A stretch of DNA of 64,000 nt. Origin: an uncultured Poribacteria bacterium. GTDB lineage: Bacteria > Poribacteria > WGA-4E > WGA-3G. Both the position numbers and the translations under genes were made by a program. Positions 50,773-62,641 of the stretch are shown in pieces (within the stretch, counting starts at the first letter, position 1; each line of letters opens with the position of its first letter). The notes below the pieces were generated by a model. That model saw only the letters and a program-made list of their open reading frames with translations. It was not told where the DNA came from and ran no database searches. The stretch lies in contig OX639973.1 in assembly GCA_951828385.1 (NCBI GenBank), positions 248,001-312,000 on the forward strand, written 5' to 3'.

Positions 50773-51501
50773 CTAATGGGTGAGGGTATAAACAACAGCG
50801 TTGATACCCATTTTCAGTGCCATATCAGAATACTCACGCGGGTAGTAATCCTCAGCGGCGTGTTCCCACGCGTCGCCAAGATCGGAATTAAAGTTGATCA
50901 TCATCATCAATCTGCCATAATCATCATAAACACCCCGGCAGTATGCCGGATATCCGTCGTGTCGCTCGTAGGTTCGACCATTAAAAAGTGAACGGAGTCC
51001 AGGGATTTGGATCAGTTTGTCAATTTCAAAAAAGCAGTGGAAAATCGGATGTGTCATCGGAATGTCTATCGGTTCGCGATCTGGGAAAATCTTCTTGAAC
51101 TCGGCATAAAACCACTTCCATTCACGTTCCCCGTGAAAATCGTCAATAAAGATAAACCCACCGCGCAAGAGATATTCCCGTAGATTCTCTGCCTCACTTG
51201 TGCTTAACCTGAGACTCCCGACTTCAAGCATATAAGCGAAAGGATATTCAAATAACTCCGATGCTCCGACCTTAATAATCTTTTCTCGGGGGGCAACCGA
51301 AATGTTTGTCTGTTTACTGAGCTGCCAGATAAAATTACGATCCGAGGCTGGCCAATCCACACGCCAACTGCTGAGTCGTGTGAGTTGCCCGCGATATTCC
51401 AAGCGGACAAAGGTAAATAGGTCGCTGTCATCTTCTCCGTCCAGAAGCACCGTGGGCACAGACAGCATGACAATAAGCGTTAGCAATAGAATAATTCGCA
51501 T
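50773..51501 (-). CDS. DUF4159 exported protein
   Basis: 242 aa. A signal peptide covers residues 1-20. The mature part matches DUF4159: FTFVRLEYRG, VDWPASDRNF, YPFAYMLEVG, LREYLLRGGFIFIDDFHG and MMINFNSDLGDAWEHA. The fold is glutamine-amidotransferase-like, with no known reaction. It is a paralogue of the next gene and the last gene of the envelope operon (28 bp gap). Confidence 0.85.
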   Translation of the reverse strand: MRIILLLTLIVMLSVPTVLLDGEDDSDLFTFVRLEYRGQLTRLSSWRVDWPASDRNFIWQLSKQTNISVAPREKIIKVGASELFEYPFAYMLEVGSLRLSTSEAENLREYLLRGGFIFIDDFHGEREWKWFYAEFKKIFPDREPIDIPMTHPIFHCFFEIDKLIQIPGLRSLFNGRTYERHDGYPAYCRGVYDDYGRLMMMINFNSDLGDAWEHAAEDYYPREYSDMALKMGINAVVYTLTH

Positions 51502-51529
51502 GATCGCCTTGCTCCAAACAGGGACATCC

Positions 51530-52249
51530 TTAGTGCGTCAGTGAATAAACAACGGCATTAATTCCGAGTTTGAACGCCATATCAGAACGCTCGCGCGGGT
51601 AGAAACTCTCGGCAGCGTGCTCCCAGCCATCACCGAGATCGGAATTAAAGTTAATCATCATCATCAACCGTCCATAATCGTCATAAACACCGAGGCACCG
51701 CGCTGGAAAACCGTCGTGCTTTTCGTATGTTCTCCCCCGCATGGCTGCACCGGCACCCGGAATCTGCATCAGTTTGTCAATTTTAAAGAAGCAGTGAAAA
51801 AGCGGATGTGAAATCGGGATGTCTTCCGGTTCACGTTTCGGGAAGATTTTCTTCAATTGCTTATAAAACTGCTTCCATTGCCTACCGCCATGGAAATCAT
51901 CCACCATGATAAAACCACCCCGCAAAAGATATTCGCGCACGTTCTCTGCCTCTTCGGAGGTGAGACGCAACCGACTCACCTCCAACATATAGGCGAACGG
52001 ATATTCAAAGAGTTCTTTGGAACGGATGTCAACGATCTTCTCTCTCGGAGAGACATCAATATTCGTATGTTCGCGGAGCTGGAGAATAAAGTTTCGATCA
52101 GAAGCGGGCCAGTCTATATCCCAGATACTCCGATGCCCTCGGTATTTCAAGCGGACGAAAGTGAATTGATCCGCATCGACCTCTGAATTTAAGGGGATCG
52201 TCGGCATGGACACCATAACAAAGATGATTAAGACCAGGAGAATTCGCAT
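51530..52249 (-). CDS. DUF4159 exported protein (tandem paralogue)
   Basis: 239 aa from the ATG of MRILLVLI at 52249; the frame is open upstream into the barrel gene but is not needed. A signal peptide covers residues 1-20. About two thirds of positions look identical to the neighbour at 50773, including VDWPASDRNF and FDDFHG-like VDDFHGG. It arose by tandem duplication. The gap to the barrel gene is 31 bp. Confidence 0.85.
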   Translation of the reverse strand: MRILLVLIIFVMVSMPTIPLNSEVDADQFTFVRLKYRGHRSIWDIDWPASDRNFILQLREHTNIDVSPREKIVDIRSKELFEYPFAYMLEVSRLRLTSEEAENVREYLLRGGFIMVDDFHGGRQWKQFYKQLKKIFPKREPEDIPISHPLFHCFFKIDKLMQIPGAGAAMRGRTYEKHDGFPARCLGVYDDYGRLMMMINFNSDLGDGWEHAAESFYPRERSDMAFKLGINAVVYSLTH

Positions 52250-52280
52250 ATTGTTTCGTTTTGAAAGACGTTCACTCGGT

Positions 52281-54761
52281 TTAGAAACTGTGATACCAAG
52301 CAGTCGTAATTTGAACACCAAGCCCAGATTCCAAGGCTTTGGCAATGTTAACCCTGAATACAGAATCATCGCGTCCAGAATGTAAACCCGGAACATTAAC
52401 GACGACAACAGAATCGTCTTCGCCAAACTGTAAGCCGATGCCTATACTTGCCTTCGGATTAAAAGGATACGCCCCGTCGGATACATTCCAGACTTGTCCC
52501 TCGTCAAGAAAAGCGACAAGAAACGCATTTTTGAAAATACCCCAACCCAATAGGTTCGACAGTTTGTGGTGATATTCGATATTGAGAAGAAACCCGCTGT
52601 CCCCAGCAAACGCGTAAGGTGAAGCCGTATGGCCGCTCTCATAGGTTATTATACCATCAGATCCGTCTTCTTGTCTATACCAAGGATATCCTCTCAGTCC
52701 ACCCATCCCACCTATCACAAATTGGCGTTGAATCGGCAGAGGCGAGTTAGAATAACCGAGCAAAAGCCGGGTACGGATGCGATTATTCTCAAGTGGGAAA
52801 GCATAGCGCAGGTGCAATTGGAACCGTGTGAAATCAAAATCAGACCCCACAGCTGCACTACTATGTTCAGCAAGAAAAGTATTGTGCCAGCCGAGGGATC
52901 TTGTTCTATTAAGAAAATCGTATTGAAAGACAAGCCCCCGCATCTGCCCCGCAGTTATCGGTGGATTCCCTCTGACACTGAGTTCCGATATCCAATTAGC
53001 AATAAACCAATCGGTGCTTTTTTCAAGACTTCTATGCGACTCAGTAAGCATTGACACCCTGAATGAATGCGTAGGCATAATAGGTGCCCAATATAATCTG
53101 ATCTCAGCACCTTGTCGCAAATAGTAATTTTGAAAGTCTGGCACACCAATAATGCGTTGGAAAATTCCGATGCCGCTGTTGTAGCCCGGAAAAAGTTCAG
53201 GCGCGACAGCATCTGTCAAGCAATGGAGTTGACCGGTAATGCCGAAGTTCCAAGTATACGGTCTTCCCCAATTCGCTACGCCTCCGAGATGATAATGGAT
53301 ATGCGGATTACCAAACGCATAACTCACTTTTCCAAACAGCCTTGAGATTTGGTTGCCGTGCGAATTTCTAATATTCCACATCCAGAGCGGCCCCACTTCT
53401 TTGCGTTTCCCGACTTCAAAGCCGGTGCCGATCTCCCATCCTGTCACGCGGTTAAAACCGAGCCGGAGCGGCGGACTCAGACCGAGATAGGCATCCGTAG
53501 AAAGCGGTTTTTCTTCTACAGAGATCGTGGCGATGTACTTCGCATCCGTCTCATCAACCTGTAAGCGCACCTCTTCAAAATGGGGCATTATTTTAAAGAG
53601 CGTCCTAAGTGCCTTATCAATGTCAGGTGAAGCGTTATCAAGCGTCTGCCGAATCCGTGCCGCTGGCACCTTCTGATTGCCGCGAATACGGATCTCGTGA
53701 ATCGGGGCATCTTTCGCCCAAAATCGCGTTGCTGCAGGTGGCGTATCAACCTCATCTTCTTGCAAAATGAACCACCGATCCTCTACTGATACCTGTTCTC
53801 GCTTACCTGAGATCTTCATAGATTTCAGCACCGATATCTTTTGCATAGATATCACACTAATTATGGCGATACGTTTCGCCCCTTCTTCCGTAATCCGCAG
53901 AGACACCTTCCTGGCATCATCAAGCGCGCCTGCCAGAACCGGTATAACTTCTCTGAGTTCACCAGAACCGTTTCTTAGAATCTTCATGAGTTTATCCCTT
54001 TCGGCTACGATTGTTTCTTCAATCGACTTCGGGTCAGTGCCTTCAGGGGAGGTGAGCTTGCTCTGAATCTGTATCTCATGAATCCGTTCGCCATCCGCAT
54101 ACCAATCCCAAAGCGGCAGTGGCTCAGGTGTCTCATCCGTGCCGAGTTCCGCTGTCTCGCTCTTCTCTGTAATCGGGGGCTCTGGTTGAACGGGTTCAGA
54201 CGGGGGAGGTGGCGGCGGCGCGAGTTCTAAATCACGCTGCTTCAGCGACATTAACCTCGGAATTTCGATACCGAGTTGATTCAGGTTCAGCAACAACTCA
54301 CCCAGCTGCCGCCTCGGAATTTCACAGACAATGTTTATCAGGTAAATTCCGCCCTTGTCTTTGACGATGACGAAGATGCCTTTAACGGTTTCATTCTCGT
54401 GGAGGATATAGAGATGAAGATTAATTTTTTCAGCATCAGTTTGCGAGTACTGTCCTAACGCGCGCCAACCACGTCCTTTTAGCACTTCGCTGTAATACTG
54501 AATCATCTTCTTAAAATTGCCGGATCGGTTTCGGTAGTTCCTGAGATATAAGTTATCCACGCTTTTAAACAGTGGCACAACATCGGAGGTCGGGTCTTCC
54601 ATAACGAGCGCGATGACATCGTGACTCAAATCAAATTGGAACTGAGACGATGGCACATCCGGGCAATCAAAAGGGACAATCCCGTTGTTGGATTGCGAAT
54701 TGACTGAATAACATATCAAAAATAAGAACAGCACTAACGTACCCGCAATGGTATATTTCAT
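52281..54761 (-). CDS. DUF4252-like/POTRA/Omp85-type outer-membrane barrel protein
   Basis: 826 aa. A signal peptide covers residues 1-22. Residues 25-170 resemble DUF4252 (FKKMIQYYSEVLKGRGW, GIFVIVKDKGGIYLINIV). A Pro-rich linker (about 180-210) follows. Two POTRA-like parts are next, with IHEIQIQSK, IHEIRIRGNQKV and a VEEKP exit. A C-terminal 16-strand-type barrel (about 430-826) contains the Omp85-like strand FVIGGMGGLRGYPWYRQ and ends in HSF, a C-terminal Phe for the BAM machinery. The natural partner is unknown. It lies between the PA14 gene (14 bp) and a DUF4159 gene. Confidence 0.85.
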   Translation of the reverse strand: MKYTIAGTLVLFLFLICYSVNSQSNNGIVPFDCPDVPSSQFQFDLSHDVIALVMEDPTSDVVPLFKSVDNLYLRNYRNRSGNFKKMIQYYSEVLKGRGWRALGQYSQTDAEKINLHLYILHENETVKGIFVIVKDKGGIYLINIVCEIPRRQLGELLLNLNQLGIEIPRLMSLKQRDLELAPPPPPPSEPVQPEPPITEKSETAELGTDETPEPLPLWDWYADGERIHEIQIQSKLTSPEGTDPKSIEETIVAERDKLMKILRNGSGELREVIPVLAGALDDARKVSLRITEEGAKRIAIISVISMQKISVLKSMKISGKREQVSVEDRWFILQEDEVDTPPAATRFWAKDAPIHEIRIRGNQKVPAARIRQTLDNASPDIDKALRTLFKIMPHFEEVRLQVDETDAKYIATISVEEKPLSTDAYLGLSPPLRLGFNRVTGWEIGTGFEVGKRKEVGPLWMWNIRNSHGNQISRLFGKVSYAFGNPHIHYHLGGVANWGRPYTWNFGITGQLHCLTDAVAPELFPGYNSGIGIFQRIIGVPDFQNYYLRQGAEIRLYWAPIMPTHSFRVSMLTESHRSLEKSTDWFIANWISELSVRGNPPITAGQMRGLVFQYDFLNRTRSLGWHNTFLAEHSSAAVGSDFDFTRFQLHLRYAFPLENNRIRTRLLLGYSNSPLPIQRQFVIGGMGGLRGYPWYRQEDGSDGIITYESGHTASPYAFAGDSGFLLNIEYHHKLSNLLGWGIFKNAFLVAFLDEGQVWNVSDGAYPFNPKASIGIGLQFGEDDSVVVVNVPGLHSGRDDSVFRVNIAKALESGLGVQITTAWYHSF

Positions 54762-54775
54762 TTACATCTCCGCTA

Positions 54776-55876
54776 CTATTCTTGAACCTTTTTCAGGCGT
54801 TGCTGCAGCTTTTTCAAAGCATCTGGAATTTGTGGTTCGCCGGGGTGATAGATAACATCGGGCGGCACAATTTGTCTGGAGCCGTTTGGGGGTTGATAAA
54901 ACCATTGGAGCGCAATCGCCTGTCGAGGTCCTTGGAAATAGTGAATTTCAACAGCGTGTATACCCGTCCCAAGCCTTATACGCCCCTGCCTACTGATTGC
55001 TGGATGGATCCCGTCGTTATTCACAACGAGAGACCCATCAATATATAATTGCGAACCGTCATCTGAATAGAGTTCAAAGACATACACACCCGGCATGTTA
55101 ATCTCTAATTCAGCACGGAAGCGAATCGCGAAATTCTCGATGACAGACTGCATTTTCGGTGTCGGGAATCCTTGCATATAGTTTCGTACGGGCACATCTA
55201 AGTTCGCTGTGACAAAAGTATAGATAGGAGTCAAACTGTCAAAATCAGGCATTTGGAAGATAGCCTCTCCGGGCACGTAAACTTGTCCGACTAATCCGTG
55301 ACCAGGTCTCACCTCTGTACCAAAAATACCGAGGCCTGTATCTATACGAATCGGGATATCCAGTCCAGCTTCCGATACACCCATTCCACTGGCTAACCCC
55401 ATGCCAAAGCCGCTCCCTTGACGATTAGGGCCACCGAAACCGACACCAACGCCGCCCCCGCCTCTCCCATTCTGTCCTTCAATGACAACGGGGCCTTCGA
55501 GCGTCTTCCCTTCACCAAAACTGGCGTTGGAAACAGCACTCGGACGATCCGTTTTGGGTATATCGGCGTGTGTAACGACATCAGGCACAACATCGGCGTG
55601 AACGGGTGCTTTAGGTGCACTGACCCGCGGCGCGGATGTCGGTGAAGCAGGAGAATCGGACGATGCACCCCCACCTGCCGACCGCGCCATCAGCCGTAAG
55701 CGCGGCGGCAAAACCTGCCGTTTCACCCGTTTTTCCGAGTCCACTTTTAGTATCTCCGCAGATATCTTATCCTTCTCCGCATCGTAATGATTGATCAGAA
55801 ACGGGGAGAGCCCTAACATCAGTCCTATGTGGAGAACAAACGATAGCAATAAGGCACGATTTGTGTGTTTTCGCAT
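54776..55876 (-). CDS. TonB-like N-terminus fused to PA14 domain
   Basis: 366 aa. The transmembrane helix (about 8-26) carries S12-x3-H16, the TonB SxxxH motif. A basic/Pro-Ala-Ser linker (about 45-120) and a Gly-rich stretch (about 135-165) follow. The C-terminal half (about 215-340) is a PA14 domain, with GVYVFELYSDDGSQLYIDG and GTGIHAVEIHYFQGP. No TonB C-terminal domain is present. It is likely inner-membrane anchored with a periplasmic sugar-binding-like domain. It lies between two barrel genes. Confidence 0.8.
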   Translation of the reverse strand: MRKHTNRALLLSFVLHIGLMLGLSPFLINHYDAEKDKISAEILKVDSEKRVKRQVLPPRLRLMARSAGGGASSDSPASPTSAPRVSAPKAPVHADVVPDVVTHADIPKTDRPSAVSNASFGEGKTLEGPVVIEGQNGRGGGGVGVGFGGPNRQGSGFGMGLASGMGVSEAGLDIPIRIDTGLGIFGTEVRPGHGLVGQVYVPGEAIFQMPDFDSLTPIYTFVTANLDVPVRNYMQGFPTPKMQSVIENFAIRFRAELEINMPGVYVFELYSDDGSQLYIDGSLVVNNDGIHPAISRQGRIRLGTGIHAVEIHYFQGPRQAIALQWFYQPPNGSRQIVPPDVIYHPGEPQIPDALKKLQQRLKKVQE

Positions 55877-55899
55877 TTTATGATACCTTACCAGTTTGC

Positions 55900-58176
55900 T
55901 TAGAAACTATAAAACCACGCTGTGTTGAACTGAACTCCTTGGTCGGCTTCAAAGGCTTTTGAAACGTTAAACCGCAAAATCAAGTCTGTCTCACCGAGTT
56001 GCAAGCCGATACCAACATTGCCCTTGGGTTCAAAAATGTACTTCTCCTCTGACGCGTTCCATGCCTGCCCGGCATCAAGAAAAGGCACTAAAAAAAGATC
56101 TACATCAGGAAATCCTAATGTGCTTTTCCAATTTATTAACGCTGGCAAATGGACGAGAAACTCAATATTGAAGAGAAATCCCCGGTCACCCGCAAACGCG
56201 TAAAGTGGATAGCCGTTCAGTAAGCCGGGGCCACCGATAGCAAATTGGCGTTGAATTGGCAGCGGTGCGGTTGAAAAACTGCCGACTGCCCGTGTACGGA
56301 TCCGATGGCTACCTAACGGATGCGCATAGCGTAGGTGGAGTTGATACCGTGTAAAATCATAATCGGATCCGATAGCCGTATTGCTATGCTCAGCGAAGAA
56401 AGTATTGTGCCAACCGAGAAAATCGTGCCGGGTACTATAATCGTATTTGAACAGGACACTCCGCATTCGACCCGGCGTTACCACTGGATTTTCACGCACT
56501 TCTGATTTTGACCGCCAGTTGAAGAAGTGCCAATCCGTGCTTTTTTGTAAACTGTCGTGTGACTCCGCAAGTAGACTCAGTTTCAACGAATGCCTTTGCC
56601 TAATAGGTCTCCATTGCAAGGCAACCTCAAGCCCTTCTCTCAAGTAATAATCCTGATGATCCGGCACTCCCAAAACTCGGAGAATAATCATCCCCGTATC
56701 GTCATAAAACGGAAAAAGTTCCGGGGCGATGACACTTGTCGTGCGATGGAACTGCGTCGTTAACCCAAGGTGCCATGAATCCGGTTCACCCCAAGCTGCC
56801 CTACCGCCAACCCGGTAGTAAAATTGCTTATTCCCAAACCCGTAACCGACCCGTCCGAAAAATTTTGAGAGCGTATCTCCACGGAATTCGCTTGGAACGC
56901 TGATATTGTAGGATGTGTCGGAAGACTTCTCTTTCCGAAAACCGGAATCAATGCGCGCGCCTAACTCCCATCCTGTAACGCGATTGAACCCTGCCCGCGG
57001 GGCATTATCGAAATAAAAATGTAACGGCAGCGGCGTTTCCACTATAGTCACGATCGCTGTGCGTTGCGCACCTTCCCCCTCAATCCTGAGACGTGCTTCT
57101 TCTAAACCCGATATCTCACTCGGCAGTGCTCCGATCGCCTTTTCGATGTCTTCCGGCCCCTTTTCAAGAGCTTTTCTAACATCCTTCAGATGGGTCTCTT
57201 GATGCCCTCGAATCCGTATCTCATGAATCGGTTCCCCTGCTGAGGTCCGAAACTGTTTCGCTAACATAAAAGGCTCATTTTTATGATCTGGTATATGCCC
57301 GACGCTAATCGTCGCAAGACGTTCCGATGTGTGAACAACAAGTTTCTGCTTATATCCAGATGTATTCACGGATGGAAGACTCTCCATTACAGCCTCAATG
57401 TCGGTGGATCCTTTTTGAAGTGCCTCACTGATTTGGTCAATATGCTCCTTGCTGTCAGAACGAATATGGATCTGTTCAATCGGATGTCCGTAGTAATGCC
57501 ACTGTCCATGTAGGGTTTCATTATGGCTCCTTGAGAACGAAAAACCGAACTTTGACGCGTCTCTTTTCGTTGAAAACTTCACGCTAAAAAAATTTGGCTG
57601 CTTGCCAGTGGTACGCAACAAAGTCGGTGGTGTCATCGGTTCGGGTGGTCTTTCAAATCTTTGAAACGTTTGCGCATCAAGCGACTTTAGCGCAGCTATC
57701 TCTATCCCGATTTGACCCAGATTCGCTAAAAGCTGCCCTATCTGTTGCGGTGGAATATTACCTACAATGTTTAGCAGATGCACATCGCTGTCGCTTTGGA
57801 CAACCGCGAAGATACCTGAAATCGCTTTCCCTGACTGCGAATTTTGCGCACTCGGTGCCTCCAGAACATAGAGGTGTACGCCGTTATCTTCCTGTAGGCT
57901 TTGCCAGTTTCCCGCTTTCAGGGTTTCACCATAATACTGAGCGAACTTATCAAATATACCTGCTTCAGCGTGATATATGCGAAAATAAACATCCGACACT
58001 GTGTTGAAAGGTGCTGTCGTGCCAGCGAGTGCGATCAGCTCACGCGTAAAATGGAATTGAAATTTGGCGTGTGGTGCATCAGGACAATCAAAAGCGATTG
58101 TGCCATCAGTCGTTCTGGCATGCGTCAGTCCGGATGCAGTTAGCAATAGGAATACGATAAAAATATGTGTTTTCAT
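55900..58176 (-). CDS. DUF4252-like/POTRA/Omp85-type outer-membrane barrel protein (paralogue)
   Basis: 758 aa from the ATG of MKTHIF at 58176; an upstream frame to 58281 is unlikely because the signal peptide starts here. The same design as the barrel protein at 52281: DUF4252-like part, POTRA-like repeats (IEQIHIRSDSKEH, IHEIRIRGHQET) and a barrel with FAIGGPGLLNGYPLYAF. It ends WFYSF. It is the first gene of the five-gene operon. Confidence 0.85.
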   Translation of the reverse strand: MKTHIFIVFLLLTASGLTHARTTDGTIAFDCPDAPHAKFQFHFTRELIALAGTTAPFNTVSDVYFRIYHAEAGIFDKFAQYYGETLKAGNWQSLQEDNGVHLYVLEAPSAQNSQSGKAISGIFAVVQSDSDVHLLNIVGNIPPQQIGQLLANLGQIGIEIAALKSLDAQTFQRFERPPEPMTPPTLLRTTGKQPNFFSVKFSTKRDASKFGFSFSRSHNETLHGQWHYYGHPIEQIHIRSDSKEHIDQISEALQKGSTDIEAVMESLPSVNTSGYKQKLVVHTSERLATISVGHIPDHKNEPFMLAKQFRTSAGEPIHEIRIRGHQETHLKDVRKALEKGPEDIEKAIGALPSEISGLEEARLRIEGEGAQRTAIVTIVETPLPLHFYFDNAPRAGFNRVTGWELGARIDSGFRKEKSSDTSYNISVPSEFRGDTLSKFFGRVGYGFGNKQFYYRVGGRAAWGEPDSWHLGLTTQFHRTTSVIAPELFPFYDDTGMIILRVLGVPDHQDYYLREGLEVALQWRPIRQRHSLKLSLLAESHDSLQKSTDWHFFNWRSKSEVRENPVVTPGRMRSVLFKYDYSTRHDFLGWHNTFFAEHSNTAIGSDYDFTRYQLHLRYAHPLGSHRIRTRAVGSFSTAPLPIQRQFAIGGPGLLNGYPLYAFAGDRGFLFNIEFLVHLPALINWKSTLGFPDVDLFLVPFLDAGQAWNASEEKYIFEPKGNVGIGLQLGETDLILRFNVSKAFEADQGVQFNTAWFYSF

Positions 58177-58381
58177 AATTTTTGTAAACACAACACAAGA
58201 AAGTTGTGCTATTTTAGCAAGTTGAAGTGTTATTGTCAAACGCAATCTCTGATTTTCAGATACCTTGTTGGTATATCTCAAACGGACAAATTCATAGATT
58301 ATAACGAATTTGGGTGGATCGCGTTGACATTAAACGTCCAATATGAAGTAGGAAAATTGATGATGTAGGCAGGTGTTATAC

Positions 58382-59367: not shown

Positions 59368-62300
59368 TTATTCATCAAGTGTAAAACGTAGCACGCCGCT
59401 ATTGGTAGTCCCGACATAAAGCACGTTGCCATCAACAGCAAACGAAAGGACCAAATCCGGGATCTCAGGTGTCACCTGTTCCCATATGTTTGAACGTTCT
59501 TGCAACTGATACACGTATTGCCCATTTGTGCCATAGACCGTCATTCCCTCTGCCACAAGCCTTTCCATGACAAGTTGTCCACCTTCAACATCGGTTGCTG
59601 CGTGCCAGTGGGTGCCATCGCTTGAATAGGCAACCCCATTATCGGTCGCTACATAAATCGTTGATCCCGCGAAGGTGAGAGCATTGAATTGCTCAACAGA
59701 AAACAGAATCTCTTGCGTGACATCGTTCCAAGTCTCGCCCTCATCAAACGACTGGGCGAGATGTCCATCCCGTTTGCCGACATAGACGGTGCTACCTGAC
59801 ACAGCAATCTTGAAACCCATGGAATCAAGGGCATTCATAGACGTAGAAGCCTCAGCAGAATACTCAGGAAAAACAAATTCAGCTTCATCTATTAACCCAG
59901 TATCGTACCATTCAGCCATGCCGGGTTCCCATCTGAAAAGTTTTTGTCCGTATTCGATATAGTAAGTCTTGCCACTAACGGCAAATCTTCCATAAAATGA
60001 TAGCATATCTGCTGCTGAAGGTTGTGCTCGGAAGGCCTTGTCAAGTGCCACTTTTTTTAACCTGGTATAATCGGGGTTATCCTCGAGTTTCTCAATTACC
60101 TTGTCAGATAACTGGTCAGGATCGATATTAAGGCCGTTGAGCATCTCAGTTAGTTGTTCAAGGTCAAGATCTTCAATATTTTGCTTAACCTTATCTGGAA
60201 ATGCTTCCTGCAAGACCTCCTGCAAGGCCTTGATCATCATTTCTTCGGGCACGTCTATCTCCGCCTGTACCTTATTCTGTTGATTGCCCTCCTCAAAACC
60301 GGGCATGCCGGGGATAAAATTTAAGCGATTATTTTCAGTAGAGAGGCGAAGCAGCGGTGAACGTGAATTCATATTATTTCCTCTTTTCATATACACGCTA
60401 TCGTCAAATGCAGCGATAAAAACACCGTGGTCAATATCTCTCGGAAGCGGCATCCACGATTCACCACCATCCGTTGAGGTGAGATAACTATTATCTGCTG
60501 AATTTGCGTAGAGTCTACCCTTAACAGCGATTAAAGTCACAACAGGCGTGCTAACGAACCCCGTATTAAACGGATGCCAAGATTCACCGCCATCGGTTGT
60601 GCGCAGAATCCCGGACGGACCACCTTTGTAAAAGATGTTTGTATCGGCTATCAGTAGCGGCGGGGCGATACCGACACCTGACCTATCTTTTTCCAAGGTC
60701 GTCCATGTCTCCCCAGTATTTGTGGAGTAGAAAGACTCACCATTTGCATCTGTCACCATAACCCCTGCGCCTGTTGCGAATATCTTGACACGCGGAATGT
60801 TATCTGCATTAGGTAGTGGAAAACCCATCGAAGATTGACCGTTCCGCTGCCTACCCGTCTCACGTTCCTGCCTTTCGCGTGGATCTATAGGATACCACGA
60901 CTCACCTCGATCCGTTGAGCGGTAAAGTGACCACCAAAAATCTGATTTAATTTGCGTGCCGATCTGATTTGCAGATTTTTCTCCCGCTGCGACATAGAGT
61001 CGTTGCTTCGCCGCTGCTAAGGCGTGGATCACAGGTTTTTCTCCGTGTTTATCTACGGGACCCACTGGCAATAGTTTCCACCTCTCAGCGTTGAGACGAT
61101 AGAGTCCACTATTGGTGCCAGCAAATACTGTATTTCCAATTGCGACAAGTGCCCGGATCTTCTCTGCCTCCATACCATCCTTCAGTGCTACCCATGGTGT
61201 CTCACCATCTTTGGCGTAGTAAACACCGTCCGTAAGCGCGAGGTAAAATCCTGAGTCGGTCACCACAAAGCCTCTGGCAATTCCGTTTGGATGGGCACCC
61301 AACGCATGCCACGTCTCACCCTTATCTTCGGATGCCAATATTTCGGTATCAGTGGCAAGATAAAGCATATTACCACGCGCTGCCATCTGTGCCGAATTCT
61401 CGAACCAATCTTGGAGGGTATGTGAACTCACTCTTCTCGCGTTAACGCGTCGCCATGTACGTCCACCATCTCCAAGTTTGTAAAGAGCTGTTGAGGTTCC
61501 CGCGTAAATACCACCAGAATTTGTCGTGAAGAAGTTGTTAACGATACCGCCTTCCGGTCCTTTGGTCTGCGTCCACTGCAGTTGCGGGGTTGCAACTTCG
61601 GTTTCGCCCACCAGTGCTGCAGCGAAGCGTTGTGCGTCCGGTTTCTGACCGGCACCGGGGGTGTTACCAGGCGTAATTGAACTTCCTTCCTGATTCCGAA
61701 CATCGGGTTTCGCTGGAGAATCGTAAACAAAAACTGCCTCAATAATTTCAACTGTCGGTTCCGAAGCGGCGTTCAGGTTGTACGGTCTCTGGAAACGAGA
61801 CAAGTATTGTGTGCCGACACCTATGAGTAGAAAAATCAAAACAGCAGAGGCTGCAGAGAGTGCCCACGGCAATACGGGTTTATTCGCCGCAGGTGCAGTG
61901 GGAACGATACGCGAGATTTCTCGCATAATGGTCTCTGTTAAGTTCGCAGGCAGTTGGAAACTGCCGAGGTTTTGTTGAATCATGTCTTCCTCCTTCTTCA
62001 AACGGTTACGTGCGCGACTGAGGCGGCTCTTGACGGTATTCGGCGAGATACCGAGAAAATCACCTATTCCTTTGATTGTCATCTCACCGAGGTAAAAAAG
62101 CGTGATTACCGTGCGTTCACTTTCTGGCAGTTTTTGGAGCAGCTTCTTAACGACTTCGCGGCGTGTCTCATCGGCTTCTGTCGCCTGTTTGTCTGCAACG
62201 TATCGAGAATATGACACCCGATCCACCTCACTTGGGTCAATATTATTTAAGGATTTCATCGGCATAGCGTTCTTTTGGTGCCAGTCATAACACAAACGCG

Positions 62301-62532
62301 CCGCAATAACATAGAGCCAGCCAGCAAACAGGTTGTGGTTTTTTAAGTCACCAAGATTCTGGTATGCCTTAAGAAACGCATCTTGCGTGATCTCTTGAGC
62401 GATGTGAAAATCACCGATTTTCCGCCACGCCAGCGTGTGAACCGGTTTCTGATATTTTTTCACCAAAGAAGCGAACGCGTCCTGGTCACCTTGCAAGCTG
62501 CGTTGAATGAGTTCAGCATCGTTCTGGGTCAT
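59368..62532 (-). CDS. ECF-type sigma factor fused through a membrane helix to an extracytoplasmic Asp-box propeller
   Basis: 1054 aa. The ATG at 62532 follows GGAGG; start codons at 62541 (ATG) and 62535 (GTG) also lie nearby. Residues 1-185 are an ECF sigma factor: region 2 (YQKPVHTLAWRKIGD, DAFLKAYQNLGDL, GWLYVIAARL) and region 4 (LPESERTVITLFYLGEMT, ISPNTVKSRLSRARNRLKK). One helix (221-244) crosses the membrane. The outer 700 residues contain about eight Asp-box (BNR) repeats, such as STDRGESW, TTDGGESW and SFDEGETW. No separate anti-sigma gene is near. It may sense extracellular ligands directly and alter sigma activity. Confidence 0.88.
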   Translation of the reverse strand: MTQNDAELIQRSLQGDQDAFASLVKKYQKPVHTLAWRKIGDFHIAQEITQDAFLKAYQNLGDLKNHNLFAGWLYVIAARLCYDWHQKNAMPMKSLNNIDPSEVDRVSYSRYVADKQATEADETRREVVKKLLQKLPESERTVITLFYLGEMTIKGIGDFLGISPNTVKSRLSRARNRLKKEEDMIQQNLGSFQLPANLTETIMREISRIVPTAPAANKPVLPWALSAASAVLIFLLIGVGTQYLSRFQRPYNLNAASEPTVEIIEAVFVYDSPAKPDVRNQEGSSITPGNTPGAGQKPDAQRFAAALVGETEVATPQLQWTQTKGPEGGIVNNFFTTNSGGIYAGTSTALYKLGDGGRTWRRVNARRVSSHTLQDWFENSAQMAARGNMLYLATDTEILASEDKGETWHALGAHPNGIARGFVVTDSGFYLALTDGVYYAKDGETPWVALKDGMEAEKIRALVAIGNTVFAGTNSGLYRLNAERWKLLPVGPVDKHGEKPVIHALAAAKQRLYVAAGEKSANQIGTQIKSDFWWSLYRSTDRGESWYPIDPRERQERETGRQRNGQSSMGFPLPNADNIPRVKIFATGAGVMVTDANGESFYSTNTGETWTTLEKDRSGVGIAPPLLIADTNIFYKGGPSGILRTTDGGESWHPFNTGFVSTPVVTLIAVKGRLYANSADNSYLTSTDGGESWMPLPRDIDHGVFIAAFDDSVYMKRGNNMNSRSPLLRLSTENNRLNFIPGMPGFEEGNQQNKVQAEIDVPEEMMIKALQEVLQEAFPDKVKQNIEDLDLEQLTEMLNGLNIDPDQLSDKVIEKLEDNPDYTRLKKVALDKAFRAQPSAADMLSFYGRFAVSGKTYYIEYGQKLFRWEPGMAEWYDTGLIDEAEFVFPEYSAEASTSMNALDSMGFKIAVSGSTVYVGKRDGHLAQSFDEGETWNDVTQEILFSVEQFNALTFAGSTIYVATDNGVAYSSDGTHWHAATDVEGGQLVMERLVAEGMTVYGTNGQYVYQLQERSNIWEQVTPEIPDLVLSFAVDGNVLYVGTTNSGVLRFTLDE

Positions 62533-62641
62533 CACAAGCATTCCTCCAGATTGAATCTATCTTTAACTATAAGTGACTGGTTTTAGGGATCGAAAAGTTG
62601 CATTATTTAACGATATTTTCAGAAAGAGGGTTTATGCCAAT

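Follow-up and report, generated by a model that had tools for sequence, protein, structure and literature searches.

The closest described relatives of the locus analysed here are the Ton and Tol systems. TolA and TonB contact their motors through a membrane helix bearing a Ser-His-Leu-Ser (SHLS) motif, the histidine of which is required; H20A and H22A substitutions abolish TonB/TolA function (PMC10666116). A five-gene operon in the window (the whole 64-kb stretch of Poribacteria DNA that was analysed) resembles these systems in encoding a protein with an N-terminal membrane helix containing an invariant Ser-x3-His, a disordered periplasmic stalk and a globular tip, in a genome that also encodes ExbB and ExbD. 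The tip, however, is PA14 or DUF4159 where TonB and TolA carry TonB_C or TolA domain III, and the neighbouring genes encode Omp85-type barrels rather than plug-domain receptors or TolB/Pal. These barrels share with the Omp85 superfamily (BamA, TamA, FhaC/ShlB) their POTRA repeats, a modelled barrel of 15-16 strands, the RGY motif of barrel B and a C-terminal Phe, but they differ in having an N-terminal DUF4252 domain and a TonB-like partner gene, in the loss of RGY from barrel A, and in scoring far under the BamA equivalog cut-offs.

The Agl-Glt gliding and sporulation machinery of Myxococcus brings together TonB-like inner-membrane proteins, outer-membrane barrels and an ExbBD-type motor, a combination that our reading of the operon shares. 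Its component GltJ has a TonB-like C terminus (PMC8262864). The proteins are nevertheless different ones, and the Poribacteria operon is without motor genes. Both domains of the operon that bear only DUF numbers are also found in other settings. DUF4252 is found in Bacteroidota (a Bacteroides control genome was matched), whereas the Poribacteria version continues into POTRA and an Omp85 barrel. DUF4159 proteins presumably also occur in operons of the BatA/MoxR type, and one copy in the window's own genome (L049) has a neighbourhood resembling that kind; in the Poribacteria operon, by contrast, the domain appears to be carried by a TonB-like stalk or to descend from a protein that had one. Our literature search found no paper on DUF4159, no Poribacteria TonB/PA14 system and no description of a TonB-type arm combined with a barrel of the BamA kind. 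The operon could be an energised outer-membrane machine in which a TonB-type arm with exchangeable PA14 or DUF4159 tips stands beside two BamA-kind barrels.

Operon layout and the two barrels

An earlier note, made from the sequence alone, had described a five-gene, single-strand operon with gaps of 14-31 bp, and this was borne out; five genes lie on the minus strand at 50773-58176, with successive gaps of 23, 14, 31 and 28 bp:

58211..58239, minus strand: candidate sigma-70 promoter of the operon, TTGACA-17-TAAAAT with extended -10, 11/12 consensus (a consensus match only)
55900..58176, minus strand: barrel A, 758 aa; signal peptide, DUF4252-like domain, POTRA-like repeats and Omp85-type barrel, with NGY, not RGY, at L6
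54776..55876, minus strand: TonB-like/PA14 putative transducer, 366 aa
52281..54761, minus strand: barrel B, 826 aa
51530..52249, minus strand: DUF4159a, 239 aa; exported, lineage-specific extra copy
50773..51501, minus strand: DUF4159b, 242 aa; exported, conserved copy

All five products had been called exported, a statement that holds for the four with signal-peptide-like N-termini but not for the PA14 protein, which has a helix of the uncleaved-anchor type and is therefore expected in the inner membrane, exposed to the periplasm. The sigma-70-like site is located about 35 nt upstream of the operon's first ATG, and a PhyH gene, mostly syntenic within the genus, follows 194 bp downstream of the operon. 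Further upstream, at 59368-62541, is a gene for a protein of 1057 aa in which a probable membrane helix links an ECF sigma factor to a BNR/sortilin-type propeller, in effect a single-protein membrane-tethered sigma factor; many relatives of the same genus also have a similar fusion ahead of the operon. It was not adopted as the operon's regulator, and its position may be plain synteny, because several relatives from other genera lack a sigma gene near the operon.

Both barrels had been read as a DUF4252-like domain joined to POTRA and an Omp85-like barrel, and profile matches together with a model of barrel B supported that architecture. Omp85 was matched in both by Pfam (6e-6 and 2e-11); DUF4252 was matched over the Pfam cut-off in barrel B (2.6e-6) and under it in barrel A (0.036); the POTRA profile matched neither, and POTRA topology appears twice in the barrel B model. 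Nor did the DUF4252 and POTRA assignments fail in profile searches of 50 barrel homologues, which matched DUF4252 in 35/50 (taken at E up to 0.1), POTRA in 13/50 and Omp85 in 48/50. The parts of barrel B were placed as follows:

54294..54635, minus strand: DUF4252 domain, residues 43-156
53808..54104, minus strand: POTRA-topology repeat 1, residues 220-318, beta-alpha-alpha-beta-beta in the model
53511..53723, minus strand: POTRA-topology repeat 2, residues 347-417, beta-alpha-alpha-beta-beta in the model
52284..53498, minus strand: Omp85-type beta barrel, residues 422-826, with C-terminal Phe
52686..52694, minus strand: RGY codons, the Omp85 L6 loop motif

The AlphaFold model of barrel B, of moderate quality (mean pLDDT 75, pTM 0.50), showed the DUF4252 region and the two repeats, followed by about 15-16 strands that form the barrel; its top Foldseek matches were BamA and TamA (E 4.5e-17, probability 1.0), with low whole-chain TM-scores that are probably due to the domain arrangement. 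The L6 motif of Omp85 proteins is of the (V/I)RG(F/Y) type; its Arg is present in 31/33 barrel B sequences and replaced by Lys in the other 2/33, while 15/17 of the barrel A sequences and family f4 copies read NGY or SGY. In a tree, barrels A and B separated with good support into two clades of orthologues throughout family f1, with the f4 pair in a clade of its own. The depth of these clades and the unlike L6 motifs support the view that barrels A and B are truly distinct.

Three familiar identities were tried for the barrels and rejected: BamA, since the equivalog profile, which has its cut-off at 297 bits, gave scores of 27.1 and 15.3; a two-partner secretion TpsB, since ShlB scored 19 bits against a cut-off of 22.7 and there was no TpsA-type neighbour; and a TonB-dependent receptor, since Pfam found no Plug in either barrel and the Plug places are elsewhere in the genome. 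For BAM/TAM the better candidates are other genes of the genome, which match Omp85 more strongly.

A TonB-like arm and its apparently exchangeable tip

By its anatomy, the PA14 protein is a putative force transducer of the TonB/TolA type, in which PA14 and a conserved C-terminal helix take the place of TonB_C:

55787..55855, minus strand: TonB/TolA-like transmembrane segment, residues 8-30, with Ser12-x3-His16
55334..55753, minus strand: disordered periplasmic stalk, residues 42-181, about 140 residues at pLDDT <50
54842..55294, minus strand: PA14 domain, about residues 195-345, sugar-binding PA14 fold
54782..54826, minus strand: conserved C-terminal amphipathic helix, PDALKKLQQRL, residues 351-365

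AlphaFold placed a helix at 2-41 and low confidence, indicative of disorder, at 30-181, followed by PA14 and the C-terminal helix. Among 36 aligned homologues Ser12 and His16 were invariant (36/36) and Ser24 was present in 35/36, most other positions of the helix being variable and hydrophobic. Ser12 and His16 match the leading Ser and His of the SHLS motif in TolA/TonB; against the transducer reading, the +11 Leu of that motif is merely hydrophobic here and its final Ser is displaced to Ser24. The PA14 profile was matched at 1.7e-11 (Pfam), and structure comparison aligned this part with solved sugar-binding PA14 structures at E about 1e-9. Neither TonB_C nor the TolA C-terminal domain was present in the protein, for which Pfam gave PA14 alone and NCBIfam nothing. 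A second TonB-like/PA14 gene of the same genome (L050:8845-9738) stands alone, with neither a barrel nor a DUF4159 neighbour, and stops short of the conserved C-terminal helix; tandem duplicates of the TonB/PA14 gene lie inside the operon at L145, L150, L152 and L155.

No ExbB or ExbD gene was found near the operon, which counts against a motor-coupled arm; the sole ExbB-ExbD-ExbD locus of the genome (C1:4560266-4561689) is distant from it. Profile searches of the same genome located ordinary TonB_C proteins at 4 places and Plug domains at 15, so the ExbBD motor serves other clients. Imaging in Poribacteria has placed an ExbD-type protein at the membrane (PMC5087111).

DUF4159a and DUF4159b scored 172 and 175 bits with the DUF4159 profile, whose cut-off is 25.9 (E about 1e-50 for both). 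In isolate PCPOR4, a gene lying between those for barrel A and TonB/PA14 (L128:5576-6856) encodes a 426-aa protein with DUF4159 (E 1.6e-50) in place of PA14, on a stalk identical to that of the adjacent TonB/PA14 protein at 116/171 aligned positions; the PDALKKLQQRL tail is common to both. The equivalent operon position elsewhere presents a series of decay, in which the histidine is retained and the stalk lost (L146), or the histidine is replaced by Cys (L105) or Tyr (L143, L144), the stalk being lost in L105 and L143 as well. These decayed fusions look like former arms whose N-terminus survives as an apparent signal peptide, leaving plain exported DUF4159 proteins. Given the domain swap and the decaying intermediates, PA14 and DUF4159 appear to be interchangeable tips, and the DUF4159 proteins look like an alternative tip of the TonB-type arm that is now mostly made separately and exported.

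Within the window's own genome, four TonB-like N-termini are joined to DUF4159 (Pfam-confirmed); fusions of this kind lie at L053:5934-9008, L054:6412-7890 and L052:7728-9053. Two of the four are in tandem, and all are away from such barrels. A cluster from another family (L171) holds a sigma factor, a putative anti-sigma factor, DUF4252 proteins, a DUF4252-POTRA-barrel and a Pfam-confirmed TonB-like/DUF4159 fusion. By fusion and neighbourhood, DUF4159 belongs with the TonB-type arm. An amidotransferase activity was considered for DUF4159 and rejected, there being no invariant Cys in the 'GGF..DD' stretch expected to bear the nucleophile; Asp, His and Glu are the residues conserved in common with other DUF4159 proteins.

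Conservation and loss across Poribacteria

The set was found to be conserved in other genomes, DUF4159 standing directly after barrel B in 35/36 testable loci. Conservation within the genus is weak evidence because the neighbours are syntenic there; the four-gene order, however, is kept in other genera despite mostly different flanking genes, where TonB/PA14, barrel B and DUF4159 follow one another, usually with barrel A first (for example L147-L149, L153, L156, L169, L187-L189, L191-L195 and L205). At most loci the junction between TonB/PA14 and barrel B measures -8 to 22 bp. In a sample of the phylum, TonB/PA14 (E 1e-40 or better) was present in 56/59 genomes of family f1, 4/9 of family f4 and 0/17 others, and a pattern scan of limited reach returned, from named collections, relatives that were all Candidatus Poribacteria, an apparent restriction to the phylum.

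Most relatives have barrels and DUF4159. DUF4159a is a lineage-specific additional copy, barrel A is missing in several relatives, and the sister family f4 has barrels and TonB/PA14 without DUF4159, followed by unrelated downstream flanks. Eight genomes (nine loci, L196-L204) carry the operon without either barrel; TonB/PA14 and DUF4159b adjoin there with Ser and His intact, a small ORF separating them at one of the nine loci, and no orthologue of barrel A or B was found elsewhere in these eight genomes, just weaker, differently built paralogues. The arm therefore does not require these barrels. On this distribution TonB/PA14 is the hub of a modular system, with the Omp85-type barrels as frequent, dispensable partners.

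Other arrangements were seen along the way. In one relative a TnpB-like (IS200/IS605-type) gene lies between a TPR gene and barrel A (L072:4654-5766). A recurrent Poribacteria group (L059, L064, L067, L171, L185) comprises an ECF sigma factor, a putative zinc-finger anti-sigma factor, one or more DUF4252 proteins and sometimes a DUF4252-Omp85 barrel; in the window's own genome one such DUF4252 protein is joined to DUF5694 (L185:6680-7984).

A proposed machine and its rivals

We propose that the operon encodes a variant envelope machine of the Ton/Tol type, in which an ExbBD-powered trans-envelope arm works on partners in the periplasm or outer membrane, most often Omp85-like barrels, and we judge the chances of this to be about evenly balanced. 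It is likely that ExbBD powers the arm, and plausible from genomic context that the arm acts on the barrels where barrels are present. The single ExbB-ExbD motor of the genome would drive the arm via proton-motive force; the tip, perhaps with DUF4159, would contact either the DUF4252/POTRA region of the barrels or a glycan in the periplasm, and this contact would gate or pull some process at the outer membrane, for example export, insertion or uptake. With RGY retained, barrel B may be the active barrel and barrel A, with RGY lost, an accessory; in the barrel-less relatives the arm would have to work on another partner. The narrower proposal of a PMF-driven Omp85 machine, in which a dedicated TonB-type arm with PA14/DUF4159 tips pulls the DUF4252/POTRA part of an Omp85 barrel, we regard as doubtful.

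The main rival to a barrel-acting arm is action on glycan, whether cell wall or capsular. A core of TonB/PA14 and DUF4159 might work on peptidoglycan or a periplasmic polysaccharide, in cell-wall sensing, anchoring or remodelling or in a Tol-like role, with the barrels as mere passengers of the operon; the adjacency of the two genes in the barrel-less genomes, the resemblance of PA14 to sugar-binding structures and the one stalk common to PA14 and DUF4159 make this a tentative possibility, against which stand family f4, where barrels are kept with TonB/PA14 and DUF4159 is absent, and the very tight junction between TonB/PA14 and barrel B. The same losses bear on the earlier note's interpretation, that paired paralogues denote a heteromeric apparatus for outer-membrane secretion or assembly, comparable to BAM, TAM or two-partner secretion. 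The pairing of the barrels stood up, in that they are two ancient orthologous clades with different L6 motifs, and the BamA/TamA-like fold with POTRA repeats and the conserved gene order also speak for such a heteromer; the pairing of the DUF4159 genes did not, one being an extra copy, and given this modular presence and loss of barrels and DUF4159 the interpretation, for which neither a substrate nor a role in secretion was found, is supported in part only. With barrel A absent from several relatives, no conserved adjacent gene for a substrate, a ShlB match under its cut-off and better BAM/TAM candidates elsewhere in the genome, we consider it unlikely. Still less probable, to the point of being remote, is a surface-signalling relay running from barrels and TonB-like arm to an ECF sigma factor. 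Genes for ECF sigma, anti-sigma and DUF4252 do repeatedly share a neighbourhood, which in L067 includes DUF4252-barrels and in L171 a barrel and TonB-DUF4159, and the sigma/BNR fusion precedes the operon in the window and in many same-genus copies; its absence near the operon in several other-genus relatives, however, is what genus synteny might produce, and the window operon bears a sigma-70-like promoter of its own.

A conserved operon that holds both an Omp85-type barrel and a TonB-type transducer, as this one appears to, offers a directly testable case, and if the PMF-driven machine proved true, an Omp85 protein would have direct access to the energy of the inner membrane. The tip of a TonB-like arm seems to be replaceable wholesale, from PA14 to DUF4159, and both DUF4159 and DUF4252 would be placed in a cellular setting, in a phylum whose known members are mainly uncultivated sponge symbionts.
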